Positions 56,253 through 64,000 of a DNA stretch of 64,000 bases are shown here, one piece after another. The position numbers were made by a program, and so were the translations under genes. Origin of the DNA: Clavelina lepadiformis (taxonomy: Eukaryota; Chordata; Ascidiacea; Aplousobranchia; Clavelinidae); NCBI RefSeq assembly GCF_947623445.1, contig NC_135244.1:8122001-8186000 (forward strand), written 5' to 3'. Position 1 is the stretch's first letter, and each line of letters begins with the position of its first letter. Under the pieces are notes generated by a model. The model saw only the letters and a list, made by a program, of their open reading frames with translations, did no database searches and was not told the DNA's origin.

Positions 56253-59200
56253 CTACACATCTGTCCTACGAAGTACAATTGTTTGGCTGGGATCGTTAGA
56301 CACGCCTTCTATATCATCAGCAACGCCTACAACGACGTATTGGGCCCCTTCTTCCACTGCGTCACAGTCTTCCCTAGCAACGATCACGGATTGCATGTTT
56401 GGGTCAATCCCGTCAGCAACAACTGCATCACCGGCGTTATGATCGTGACCGGTTAAGCCCATTTTCGGCACAATGGCCATTTGATGGTCCGTTGTTCCGC
56501 CACTGCCCGTCGCTTCAGTGTCCAGCAGAGAGGAATCTATTTCATCCGCGAAGACAATAGAATGTCCGGTTACCAAGGTAACGGGAATGGTGTTGTTCTC
56601 ATTTGGGACTACAGCGAAGGATGTTGTGACATCAGACGAGGAAAATGAAGGATCCAAGTCGTTAGCAAGAAGGTTGACGGATGGAGCTAAAACTGCTTCG
56701 GAAGAAGTGGCTTCTGGAGAGAGCGGATTGATGCCAGAGATCGAATTGGATATTAGATGCAAGAAAGAGGGAGCGTATGTTACATCTGACGATTCTCTGA
56801 GATCCTGCGTTGTATTAAGGGTTACTGGATTAGTCAAAGACATGCTGAACTAGCTAAGGCCAAAACAGTCGAAGTTGACCATTTATTGCACAGAAAGAAA
56901 CAAAGCAATATGAAACACTACTGCAAAAATAAAACGCATAATTTGCATAATTTTCTACGTCTGTTTTTATTCTAGAATTACAATTTATTTTAGATCTATT
57001 CAAACAACATTACATTATGGGATGTAATGTTATATACTTTTTTCTTTGTTTGTATCTACTTTAGCGAACTACACTATACACATTGATAGATATCATTAAC
57101 AGATGATTGTTGCATTTATTGTACTTTTCTCACACAGTCATCGCAAACCTAAAGTTCAAAACCATCACAAAACTGGTAAACTTAACGCTAAAAGGAATAC
57201 TCACCATGCGAATATCACTTTCGCCATGCGTTGGCTGGAATCGAGAACCAGATTCAGCCGCTATATGACGGTCGCGAGCTTCCTTAGTTGGAAATCCACT
57301 GCCGCACTGCTCGCAACGAAACCTAAACGAGAACAACACACTTTTGAAAACAGTTTGACAGATTTTCTTTCGGCAAAAACGGAGACAGAAAAACTTACGG
57401 GGCCAAGTCGTGGATTTTGTGTACGTGATCTTTCAAGTATTGGAGCCTGGTGTAAGCGAACGAACAGATGTTACATACATACGGCCGACCCCTCGTATGC
57501 TTTGTCATGTGTCTGGTCAAATCATCTAAGGTGCAAGAAGCAATCAGGTATTGTCAATATTACAATTCAGTTTAAGCCAAATTAAGCGCGTTGTTATTAC
57601 TTCCTTAACGCAGGCACTATTAATACGGCTTGGACTTGGTACCGACTATTTTAAAACTACTACTGAAGTAATTTTATATTAACCATAACAATGTGTGTAA
57701 CAGTACACTGGATGCGAGCGATTGGCAAGTCAAACGTAATTTTCGATGACTTGCGCAGCGACACAGTGCGATTTTGTGGTACGAAAGAACTATACTAGAT
57801 GACGAGAATCGAGTTGAAATATGGTGTAACTTAAAAGTATTTTATTTAGTAATTAAATAATCAAACAAAACGATTTGCATGCAAGCCAAATGTATGATGA
57901 GGTAAGAAATATGCAAGCATGTAGGAGAGGGTCGAATCAGACTTTAAAGTAACTTACTGGAAAATTGAAAGCTAGTTCGGTTACACCGTTACAGGCTTGT
58001 ATAGGTTATACAGGTTCTATACAGTAAGCCTCAACATTTCGATTATACAGTCAATTCTTTCGGCTACATAATTTTATCACAAGTTTGGCCTTGTTGGCAA
58101 GCACGCGTTCAATTAACGAAGAAGAGCGATTGTGTGTGAAGACAGGTTGACCATGACATGTGTTTCCTTGCGATGTTATGTTGTGTAGCAAGATAATCGC
58201 ATCCAGTGTCGCAGTCATTTTAGTGTTAAACTTACTTCTGTATTGAAACGCGCGACCGCAATCGTCGCATTTATGTTTGCGGATTCCAAGGTGTCGTAGT
58301 TCATGCGAACGAAGATTAGCTTTCTGCCGGAAAGAGCGACCACATACTTCGCACAGGTAAGGTCGATGACCGGTGTGCAAACGACGATGAGCTGTTAGCG
58401 GACCAGGCTGAGAGAATCGTTTCCCGCATGTTTCACAACTGCCCAAATTAATGAAAAGCGTGTTGATCAATTATAACAATCAAAACCGAAGACAAAGCAA
58501 TTCAGCTGCAAAGACATAAAACGATGTGTTGTTTAGTCGTATGTAATGCATTATGTTACGGAAGCGAACGCCTGCAGCAGTTGGTGTACACTTCAAATTC
58601 TGATCGTCAAACGCCGGAACATGGGATTATATGAGATGGCGTACAACTTACGAGTAAGGTTTCTCTCCCGTATGAGTTCTCATGTGAATTGTCACCGATC
58701 CAGCCTCGGTAAAAGTGGCCGGACATTGCGGGCATTTGTGCACACTTTGTCGGCTGTGCGTCTTCGTATGCCTCAGGCAATTGCTCTTGCTCCGGAAGCG
58801 TTTACTGCAGACCGGACAGTGAAAGGGCATATGCCCGCTATGGCTGCGAAGATGAACTGCAACAAACGTTTCGACATGTATTTACAAAAGAGACTAGCAG
58901 TAAGCATTTTACTAAACACCAACTACGATAACAGTTTTTAGCGTATATGTGATGTTTTTCCGCTACTGCAATACCATATATTTTATAGGCATCTTGCAAT
59001 GTATGACATAACAGTACGTCAAACACCAGGAAACTATATAACACAAAGTTAGAATTGGCCTTTAAAATGACGACGACTTAACTTTGCGATGAATGAAGAA
59101 CTTCTGAAAGTAGAAATTTGCTGTATTTTGAAAATTCAGTTACTTACCTGCCAGAGATGTCATAGTTTTCATTGATTTTGAGCAAACGTCACAAGTGAAA

Positions 59201-62200
59201 ACAGGTTTTCTATCTCGCATTTTTCTGCTCGAATGACGATTAATCACGTGATTGTGCAGTAGAAGACTAGATGAAAATCGACTTGAGCATACGCCACATA
59301 CGTAACTACATCTATTCATAGAAATAACAGAATTTAACTTCACCAAAATGAATCTGTGTCGTCTTAGCGAAAACAAAAGGCGCAAAAAATTAACCATAAC
59401 CAACTAAACAAAAGCTTTATCCACTTGATTCCACTGTTTACGTATATCTTTTATGGTGTACAGTATATGAAAAATATCATAAATGATGTAATAATAATTT
59501 TGCTCATTTCGCTTTTGTTACTAAAAAATAATGTAAAAATTAAGTTAATTCCACTGTTCCATAACGGAAGAACCAGCGCAACAAAATTGTTAGTGTACAC
59601 TACAGCATAACAACATACTGTGTCGTATCTATGGGTGTAACAATGTTTGAGGTTGTTGAAATGTTGGCGTTTTTAGAATCTTCCTTCTCTACAGAAAAGA
59701 ACCTTATTTAACACGCCGGTGTACTTTGGTCACTGAGCTTTAAATACGTGCACAACGTACAGCAAGCACTGTAATTACTTACAACTGCTACCTTCTAATA
59801 CCCAAATGCACATAACGCAGATGTTCTGCACACGCGTTTTAAAAAAACAAAACACGTCGATTTGCAAGGAAAAAACACGATCGAAGCATGGACCTGTATT
59901 AAGATGCTGGCCTTGAACTCCATCATTACGCTCAGATTCCTCTCGTAAAAGTGCTGCTTTTTGGGCTCTAGACAAAAGATTCCAGGAATTAATTACAGAT
60001 TAAAGAAATAGATTAGAATGTTTCCTTGTACAGTATTACTTAAAGTGAGGGGCAAGTCCAAAAACAAGATGAAGTTAAGTCAAAACAAACACTACTGAAT
60101 ATTCCGGTAAAATATTTTTGAAAAATAATTCTAAGTGAGGTAATTATAAGCAAAAGAAAATCGCAAAGTTGGCCTTAACTGTGACGTAAATGAAGGCTTT
60201 AACGAGTAGCCTAAGCGGTCCAAATGATACTGTAACTCTACCGACGCAAATGGTTGAGATACCGGATTTATTATGCTTAAAACAATCGTAATTTATTCAA
60301 TTACATTGCATCAAGTTACTAATTTCTCCACATGACGCCTAATTGAAAATAGGTTAAACTCCTACGACCAACACTTCTGACTTCAGTTGACTACCGCGCA
60401 AGGAAAGCAACAGCAGCAGCAGCATGCTGTTAAGCAAATCGGCTAATGCAGTGGTTCTCAAACTTTTTTAAAAGAAAGTACGCCACGGTCTCCTAGCAAT
60501 TTTGTAAATGCCTCACGGTCCCTTAAAAAATCAAACAAAAATAAACACAAAACAACACGTTGGTTTTTATGGTATCAATGTGACGGGTGTACCTGCTTCT
60601 TTGCAACCAGTTCATTAATGTTTGGTTCCGTTTTGGACAACGCAACCCTAATATCGTGAATCGCATTCGAATCACACCGGTTTCGAGCTTTTGGCTTGAT
60701 GGCAAGAAGTGCCGTTTTTTTGGAAGGTGCTTCGCGGTCCCAGAAAATTGTCTCGCGGACCTCAGTTTGAGAACCACTGGGCTAATGTATGACATAACAA
60801 GGGTCTTGATCTACGTCACCATGAAGGCAAAAAACTGAGACTTTTTGCAATTTTTCTTTTGCTTAATAATTATTAATTACCTAGCCACGAATTATTTTTC
60901 AAAAATATTTAACCAGGATGTTCGGTTAATAGTGTTCTTTCAAAATGATCAACTTGTTTTCGGACTTTCCCCTCACTTTAAAGCAATTTTTGTGTTTATA
61001 CCTACCGTTTACTTATAACGCTTTTCTGGTTTTCATGGCGTCGTTCGTGAGCTCTCAAGTTGGTGAGTGTGGCAAACCTTTTTTTGCACATACTACACTC
61101 ATGTCGCCTTTCGCCAGTATGTGTGAGTAAATGACCTACAGTGAATAAAACTTACTCAGCCGTCGAAGTTAACTTTTATAAATAAATTGTGTAACTCTTA
61201 ACGTTGGAATACAATATCGAAACTAATTCAAAGAATGTGATGAAATACTCACAATCCAGTGTCAGCTTGTTACGCAAGATTTTGCCGCAGCCCAACACTG
61301 GACATATGTGCTTATCACCATAACGAGGCCTCGTTGTTTGCTCAGTTGTTTTCATTTGAGCTGTTTCTGAGTTTTTATTTGTTTCACCTGAATCAGAAAT
61401 TATAAGTGTAAAACATTTATGGACTAAGTGAGAAAATTTGCCTCTGAAATTTAATAATAACCAGCTTTGAAAATATCATCAGACAAAATTGTTTCTGAAG
61501 TGTTTTCTAATCAATGTTGTAACAATACAAGCCAAATGAACATGACGTCACAGCCAAAAAACTAGAAAAAACCAAAACCAACCATTTCCCACATTATACG
61601 TTTCTGAAAAAAAGAATGAACTAGACTACATTTAAAACAGTCATCACGTTATGATAACCAACTTAACGTGGAAAGCAACATAAGCAAAAATCTTACAATT
61701 TAAAAGCATCGACTTGACCTGATATGCGTCACAATATTATTTGGCTTGACTTAGATGTGGATGAAACTTAAACTTAATTGACTTGACGTAACAAAAATTA
61801 CCACTCTGCATTGAGTAATTAACACAATGAAATTAATACTACACTGGTACCTGCATTTTAAAGGAATGAGGAGATAGCGTAGCATTAATTCAGAATAGAA
61901 ACTCCGAAGGACTGATTCTAAACCAACTGTTACCTTTCTCATGGCTTGACTGGCCTACTTCATCAAACTCCAACTCTGCCATATTCTTCAATGTATCATC
62001 TGTAGATGTGAAAGATCAAGCCATTAAAATGAAATGTAGACTCGTTTCCAAAGTTCAGAAATATTTCTTAAATATAAATTATTTGCACAAACATTGCTAA
62101 AACAAATATAGAAACAGGAAACAGTTAAAACACCTCCAGTAATGTCATTTATTTGCTTCACTTGATTTTCACAATACTCTAAGAGATAACGCTTATCCAG

Positions 62201-64000
62201 CTGCATTTTAAGGGCAATTGTGTTAATGAGCAACTCTGGTGGAACTTTTCGTAATGCAAGCATCTTCATTATTTCTTTTGGCAGAGTTTGTAGATTACGT
62301 CCTGGTCGCACTGGAATACAATAAGATTACCATTATTGTTGTTTGCCTTTATTTCTTTAGACTCTGCAGAATTTAGCAAACATGAAACAAACGTGCCAAC
62401 TTTGCTGTAAATATTATCTGACTGTGAATTATACAGACATCACGAATACATACCATCCAAGCAATTTTGCTTTAACTTATACACGGACATATCTAGGTTT
62501 CCATCACTTAAAAATTGCATCATTTTAATGTACATGGTTTTGCCTCTTGGGGATAAACTGTTCCATGGTTTAGGATGATTGAGCAAATCACTTAAAGTGC
62601 CCTGCACAAAGGAAAAAATTTAAAGTTTAAAGCTCACGGTTTCTGCAAATATTAGCTATTCTACAAACCTGCCTACGTTTCAAGTAACTACGTGAAAAAT
62701 TCTCTAGCGAAATAGACTTCTTCTTGAGAAAGTTTCGTAAATCCAAAGCAACTGTGTTTGTATCTATGTGACAGAAGTTATCCATTAAATCATCAGGGTT
62801 TTTAGGTGGCTTAGTATACCACTCTCTTCTGATGCAAGGAAAACAAGTGTGATCTACAACCACTGGTTGCTGCTTTTCATCACTTTCTGATGCATTACTG
62901 AAGAAAAAAGACGAGATTCCGTCAGTAATGACCAGCAAAACGTTAAAATTGTACACTTTTAACAAAGATTACCAGGAAATAATCCTTTTATTGCATGCAG
63001 AAATTCATTTAAGGCATAACAATTAAAACCATGTGACCCAAACACCCTAGCTATCATAAGGAGTATTACAAATCAAGAAATAACTTACATGACATTTGGC
63101 TGTTCATCCAGGTCGTCAGTAATAATTGAAACTATCACGGTGGATTTTGGATCATTGCTAACTGAAAAAAAGACACATCTAGTCATTAGCAAAAGCTAAC
63201 TATTTGATGAGAATTTGTTTTTAACTATTTAAATTTTAGTTTTATTTTTAACGTCCCATTTGTGTGATGGTGTTAATGAACATTTTACCACTGTAAGGAT
63301 GATCATTTGAATTCATTTTTCTTCCAACATCTGCGTCACGTTTTACCAAAGCATTATTTATTTTCTTCAGTTTCGATAAATCTGGTTGCCCTATTTAGCA
63401 AATCATAATGCAAAAAGTCATACTCACATACATAAAGTAAAAAGCACATTTTTCACCCATATTCAAATGAACAGTTTTCATTATAAATCTATAATTATGT
63501 CCAATAATTAAAAATATAACAAAATAAATTATTCATAAAAAGCTCATAAAAAACATTTGATATTGAATTTATTATAATTTAAAGCACCTACAATAAGGAT
63601 TAAGATTAATAAATTCAAATCATAAGCATTCAAAAAAAGGTATGTATAATTGAAAACCATTGTTGTAAATGTTTATACCCATCATCAGACTTCCACTGCT
63701 GCCATAGTTTATTCTGTTTTGAAGGTCATTTGAACAAGAAGATTTGCTAAAACCTTTGTCATTTTGACCAGCTTGGCAGTCATCATCCATGTCAGTGATA
63801 GGCTGTTTTGAATGTTTAAACCAATGAATAAAAGTCACAACTTCCAGTTTCAAACATTGTGAAACCATAAACGATAGTGATGTTTTTCACATAATAGCAA
63901 AGAGAAAATGTATGAACAATATACTTAGCGCTTACATGTGCAATGATGTCACCCTTTTCCTGAAACAAACCCCATTCCATCACTTTTTCTTCACTTTTTT
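56253..64000 (-). CDS. CUT-homeodomain-C2H2 zinc finger protein, 5' partial
   Basis: Eighteen exons, phase-consistent: 64000-63936 (continues beyond the window), 63802-63679, 63390-63289, 63161-63089, 62897-62669, 62601-62454, 62310-62134, 61999-61934, 61387-61253, 61135-61006, 59967-59894, 59825-59792, 59311-59148, 58856-58652, 58438-58236, 57525-57399, 57322-57205 and 56849-56253. They give at least 922 residues. A CUT domain spans exons 5-6 (LRNFLKKKSISLENFSRSYL, then GTLSDLLNHPKPWNSLSPRG). Exon 7 resembles a Cut-class homeodomain: it keeps Asn51 but has Tyr, Cys and Val where Trp48, Phe49 and Arg53 are expected. About ten C2H2 fingers follow, several split exactly by introns (for example CPVLGC...HLLTH and CDVCSK...HLRSH), plus one decayed finger at 57205-57322. 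The last exon is an acidic Ser/Thr-rich tail of about 200 residues, perhaps for activation. It is a nuclear DNA-binding regulator by inference. Exons 11-12 are the least certain. Confidence 0.82.
60449..60779. mobile_element. hAT-type MITE, 331 bp, in an intron of the CUT/zinc finger gene
   Basis: Perfect inverted ends CAGTGGTTCTCAAAC and GTTTGAGAACCACTG, flanked by an exact 8-bp duplication, GGCTAATG (60441-60448 and 60780-60787). There is no transposase. The ends resemble those of the 39070-42273 autonomous-type element but are not identical, so a related hAT probably mobilised it. Confidence 0.9.

Follow-up and report, generated by a model that had tools for sequence, protein, structure and literature searches.

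The window analyzed here, a 64,000-nucleotide stretch of chromosome 5 of Clavelina lepadiformis (G000:C5:8122001-8186000; 209.06-Mb genome), carries on its minus strand a gene model of 18 exons that runs from 63802 to 56253 and stays in a single frame for 906 amino acids, with its sole stop at the end. The original prediction was correct in treating the DNA as tunicate; a COX1 search, made as a check of ascidian origin, returned no match. Both a CUT domain and an array of C2H2 zinc fingers lie within this one open frame. Beyond the 18 exons, four more in-frame exons can be joined by eye upstream, the last of which crosses the window edge (63936 to 64000 in the window, part of an exon at L004:2058-1936) and has the three others, likewise assembled by eye, upstream of it. 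With these, the full model of the CUT-C2H2 gene reaches about 1,035 amino acids and has its first ATG at L004:3974. The third upstream exon ends in an apparent GC-AG donor at L004:2577 (GAG before the junction, GCAAGA after it). A divergently oriented neighbor on the plus strand (L004:4914-7460) encodes MYM-type zinc finger, QRICH1, and DUF3504 domains, and its ATG lies 940 nt away from that first ATG.

Gene model

Reading along the minus strand, the single-frame model begins with exons at 63679 to 63802, where the splice sites are weak, 63289 to 63390, and 63089 to 63161. The CUT domain is divided between an N-terminal part at 62669 to 62897 (phase 2 in, 0 out) and a C-terminal part with the QGTLSDLLNHPKPW stretch at 62454 to 62601 (phase 0 to 1). 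Three phase 1-1 exons follow: one at 62134 to 62310 that was originally described as homeodomain-like (the HD-like exon), a 66-nt bridging exon at 61934 to 61999 whose skipping would also be frame-neutral, and the first part of finger 1 at 61253 to 61387. The remainder of finger 1 and finger 2 occupy 61006 to 61135, and linker exons at 59894 to 59967 and 59619 to 59688 lie between this pair of fingers and the main array. By translation and motif scan, the array then continues with finger 3 and the start of finger 4 (59148 to 59311), the rest of finger 4 with fingers 5 and 6 (58652 to 58856), fingers 7 and 8 with the start of finger 9 (58236 to 58438), and the rest of finger 9 with finger 10 (57399 to 57525), followed by a degenerate finger 11 seen in translation (57205 to 57322).

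Besides exon 1, exons 17 and 18 have weak splice sites. Because the donor of the small exon at 57125 to 57148 is weak (53rd percentile), the gene may instead end right past that exon, with VQ and a stop. The exon at 56253 to 56804, which ends in TAG and has no Pfam match at E values up to 0.1, is the probable C-terminal exon, and its inclusion is uncertain because the splice sites of exons 17 and 18 are weak. A 33-nt candidate exon at 62363 to 62331 would keep the frame, yet it was dropped, as it would leave an intron of 20 nt; direct splicing from 62454 to 62310 also keeps the frame. The proteins used for the Pfam, solved-structure, and paralogue searches still carry the 11 residues of this dropped exon.

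The CUT domain and the zinc-finger array

A clear CUT domain had been predicted at 62897 to 62454, and Pfam bore this out: the exons at 62897-62669 and 62601-62454 together score 77.7 bits (E = 6.7e-22) against a cut-off of 24.4, which places the product among the CUT-domain proteins, and the C-terminal part reaches 50.8 bits alone. The gene has one CUT match. Among solved structures, the nearest CUT domain is that of CUX2 (E = 4.2e-10), followed by that of ONECUT2 (E = 3.7e-9), and that of SATB2 is far away in the same search (E = 1.1). The QGTLSDLL...PKPW stretch is kept and aligns to both CUX2 and ONECUT2. Because this stretch is retained, the CUT domain and the fingers probably both bind DNA, and the earlier suggestion of a possible shift of DNA contact to the fingers is overstated.

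In the same frame as the CUT domain, Pfam finds ten zf-C2H2 stretches (112.3 bits, in the 917-amino-acid version of the window part), in agreement with the long array first proposed. These are tandem fingers with intact ligands, ten of them canonical, and they place the product among the C2H2 zinc-finger proteins as well. Counted from the translation, they are laid out as a pair (fingers 1 and 2), a linker of about 60 residues, fingers 3 to 10, and the degenerate eleventh. Finger 1 is indeed split as foreseen, the exon at 61387-61253 being joined to that at 61135-61006. A one-frame C2H2 motif scan recovers 7 of the 10 fingers because three are split by introns.

Searching the genome with the finger array returned at least 451 matches (from the best 150 of 1058 candidates). 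No distinct partner gene appears among the matches listed, where the other loci show 36 to 50% identity. Large clusters of C2H2 genes lie on G000:C1, C3, and C7, with uninterrupted frames of 229 to 764 amino acids among the matches listed; the CUT-C2H2 gene, in contrast to these long uninterrupted frames, is intron-rich. Elsewhere in the window, two further C2H2 finger motifs on the minus strand (17399 to 16949) belong to another gene. The intron that separates fingers 2 and 3 (1,038 nt) contains a 331-nt element (60449 to 60779) whose 16-nt terminal inverted repeats, CAGTGGTTCTCAAACT, are perfect; from its motifs we take the element to be a hAT-like MITE. At least 39 other places match most of this element at 86 to 94% identity (best 40 of 60 candidates).

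One gene or two

The original prediction held that splice phases run unbroken from the CUT domain to the split first finger, and translation of the joined exons confirms it. Splice sites were ranked, with generic weights, against all GT and AG dinucleotides on the same strand of the window: the HD-like exon has its donor at the 93rd percentile and its acceptor at the 96th, the 66-nt exon has both at the 96th, and the first finger exon has its donor at the 97th and its acceptor at the 92nd. Because every exon from the C-terminal CUT exon to finger 1 ends in phase 1, a match in phase would by itself arise one time in three; skipping is frame-neutral, and with three successive 1-1 exons such agreement comes cheaply. 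We therefore simulated neighboring gene ends embedded in sequence resembling introns. Across ten settings, unrelated gene ends produced an equal or better phase-matched, stop-free join in between 21 and 404 of 4000 trials (0.5 to 10%), the lower extreme with a strict donor and no extra coding sequence and the upper with the donor of the HD-like exon and generous stop-free ends. An earlier version of the simulation gave 27 to 78 of 5000. One gene is therefore favored, on a footing better than chance although short of proof. Judged from sequence, a single predicted transcript spanning the CUT domain and the fingers is likely.

The alternative that survives best is that of two neighbors on the same strand. 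The first would be a short gene with CUT alone that ends near 62024 or 61889; the second would be a C2H2 gene that starts at the ATG at 61355 and uses either its own promoter or a leader trans-spliced to the acceptor at 61388. Tunicates do carry out trans-splicing. Two genes can be entertained because this in-frame ATG, 32 nt behind the acceptor of the finger exon at 61387-61253, would be usable by a separate finger gene, and because read-through of the HD-like exon or of the exon at 61999-61934 reaches stops. The 546-nt intron between the latter and the finger exon holds one ATTAAA, in an interval that would suit a gene end, and close spacing does occur here, the ATG of the divergent neighbor being 940 nt from the first ATG of the CUT-C2H2 gene. 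AATAAA or ATTAAA is also present in 7 of the 16 other introns of the model, and by direct reading the ATG at 61355 has C at position -3. Given these points, the simulated frequency of joins of at least this quality (21 to 404 of 4000), and the intron-rich build common to the CUT and finger halves, we regard two genes as unlikely, though still a genuine competitor of the single gene.

The exon at the homeodomain position

The exon at 62134 to 62310 had been read as a Cut-class homeodomain-like exon that keeps Asn51. What stands of this reading is its setting and its predicted shape: it lies roughly at the homeodomain's place in Onecut and Cux, behind a phase-1 intron, and a structure model built from the single sequence has three helices (mean pLDDT 69.6, low confidence). 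As read by eye, each of the three CUT genes in the genome has a phase-1 intron behind its CUT domain. The distances from this intron to the PW or SW of the CUT domain, also read by eye, are about 31 codons in Onecut, 36 in the CUT-C2H2 gene, and 40 in the Cux-like gene; because these distances differ, the introns are not established as the same one.

What does not stand is the sequence signal. The Pfam comparison proposed for this region yielded the CUT domain at 77.7 bits and, for the HD-like exon, 0 families at E values up to 10. Against a 30-row homeodomain HMM, the exon plus six residues of the following exon scored -0.2 bits and ranked 260 of the 938 sequences reported (itself and 999 shuffles). 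With hhalign, the probability of a homeodomain was 0.2%, and 59 of 100 shuffles scored equally well. An ungapped alignment to a homeodomain matrix gave no support either, since 1235 of 5000 shuffles equalled or exceeded its best score of -55.8. The Asn cited in the original prediction is present, but the best ungapped offset differs from the one that would place it at position 51. The same methods did detect controls: the homeodomain of the Clavelina Cux-like gene scored 37.5 Pfam bits and reached 95.6% in hhalign with CUT-class rows removed, and half of the Onecut homeodomain scored 14.4 Pfam bits, below the cut-off of 22.9 yet visible. A homeodomain in this exon is not supported by sequence. 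The recognizable homeodomain C-terminal to CUT that defines CUT-class homeobox genes was found by none of Pfam, HMM, and hhalign, and of the ONECUT features the single CUT domain is there and the ONECUT-type homeodomain was not found.

A Foldseek search with the structure model offers an argument for a genuine, strongly diverged DNA-binding homeodomain and hence for a protein with three working DNA-binding modules. By title, 24 of the 45 rows listed are homeodomain, POU, or ONECUT entries, with LMX1A as the top match, and the three predicted helices have about the length and spacing of a homeodomain in a position and intron phase that are consistent with one. However, no match listed reaches an E value of 0.001 (the best is 0.97), and the model derives from one sequence at the pLDDT given above. 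Of the 45 rows listed, 10 or 11 are HU-type or histone-like, and the highest Z score among the matches listed belongs to drimenol synthase (6.1, with the best homeodomains at 5.6). The fold match is therefore unspecific, as HU proteins and drimenol synthase fit about equally well. With the sequence signal absent although controls were detected, we consider a working homeodomain in this exon improbable.

Relation to known CUT and zinc-finger proteins

Three loci in the Clavelina genome match CUT: Onecut on C7, a Cux-like gene on C1, and the CUT-C2H2 gene on C5. The Cux-like gene (L007, G000:C1:20279525) has a clear homeodomain and only one detected CUT domain. A paralogue search with the CUT and HD-like region returned Onecut and the Cux-like gene, besides the region itself in three pieces and a single match at E = 8. 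No C2H2 motifs were found at the other two CUT loci, over 15.3 kb and 29 kb, by the one-frame scan that detects 7 of 10 fingers at the CUT-C2H2 gene.

The consulted part of PMC4901127 divides the CUT class into ONECUT, CUX, SATB, and CMP and describes C2H2 fingers for none of them; in CUX, ONECUT, and SATB, the review sections we drew on have CUT domains accompanied by a homeodomain. The CUT-C2H2 gene resembles ONECUT (HNF6) in having a single CUT domain followed by a phase-1 intron and a helical exon, and in the common QGTLSDLL...PKPW stretch. Unlike ONECUT, it has no recognizable homeodomain and a long C2H2 array behind, and its CUT domain is split by a phase-0 intron where that of Clavelina Onecut is unsplit. 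Likeness to CUX is seen in the best solved CUT match (CUX2), in the stretch after PKPW with GK...IKM, which is nearer CUX, and in the phase-1 intron after CUT that the Cux-like gene also has. In contrast, an excerpt of PMC10515288 gives CUX three CUT domains plus a homeodomain, the Clavelina Cux-like gene has its CUT domain split elsewhere, and no C2H2 motif was found at that locus.

Atypical homeodomains also occur in SATB and COMPASS proteins, SATB having Phe at position 48 in the portion of PMC3784565 used here, but the SATB2 CUT domain is distant (E = 1.1) and a C2H2 array is present in the CUT-C2H2 gene. Pfam found no COMPASS domain in the N-terminal 170 amino acids (E up to 0.1) or in the 917-amino-acid part, a search that a very diverged copy could escape. 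ZF-class homeobox genes (ZFHX, ZEB, and others) combine C2H2 fingers and a homeodomain in one protein, as outlined in the same part of PMC4901127. The CUT-C2H2 gene differs in having CUT and in being without a recognizable homeodomain. ZF-class proteins are not known to carry CUT.

Amphioxus Bf-Acut is another extra CUT-class gene of an invertebrate chordate, with a "unique domain structure" in the wording excerpted from PMC10515288. Odd CUT architectures are already in print, since the part of PMC7806701 consulted reports an unusual gene model in which CUT is joined to an olfactory-receptor domain. PMC5415576 describes dual-specificity factors as ubiquitous among fungi and animals. A CUT-C2H2 protein is described in none of the parts consulted of PMC4901127, PMC5415576, PMC7806701, PMC6451197, and PMC13078641, and the open-access literature searched, as far as its accessible text goes, yielded no description of the pairing.

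A putative transcription factor with two DNA-reading modules

We think it probable that one tunicate gene encodes a putative sequence-specific CUT-C2H2 transcription factor in which the homeodomain slot has decayed or been replaced. A single intact CUT domain would lie in the N-terminal third of the protein, with ten canonical C2H2 fingers behind it, and from these domains we infer two DNA-reading modules. Like its counterparts in ONECUT and CUX, the CUT domain would bind a short half-site on DNA, and the finger array would serve as a long second recognition module, in the role of the homeodomain in other CUT proteins. The middle exon, in the homeodomain's place, is probably a homeodomain decayed past recognition or else a substituted helical piece; lacking a recognition-helix signature, it most likely does not read DNA like a normal homeodomain. 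The most plausible origin would be a fusion, via phase-1 introns, between a C2H2 gene and the CUT end of a CUT-class gene. That the gene is instead a decaying relic, as the unrecognizable middle domain and certain weak splice sites might hint, is very improbable, given 18 exons free of stops and frameshifts, an intact CUT domain, and intact zinc ligands in ten fingers.

More tentatively, and with slightly less confidence than would tip the balance in its favor, we propose that the gene represents a novel class of transcription factor in chordates, with a C2H2 array that functionally replaces the homeodomain and partners a conserved CUT domain in DNA reading. If a natural CUT-C2H2 gene of this kind is true, the homeodomain partner of CUT would be exchangeable, and the gene would offer a test case for the rebuilding of a two-module DNA reader.

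The three CUT loci of Clavelina also bear on the wider ascidian picture, as Ciona is reported with Onecut only in the excerpt of PMC10515288. On the same chromosome as the CUT-C2H2 gene, a homeobox cluster at G000:C5:847530-924314 packs 24 of at least 116 homeodomain matches in the genome (counted from the best 150 of 192 candidates) into 77 kb, with scores of 27 to 57 bits. This cluster is tandem and fast-diverging, and eight further homeodomain matches lie at C5:1200390-1252208.
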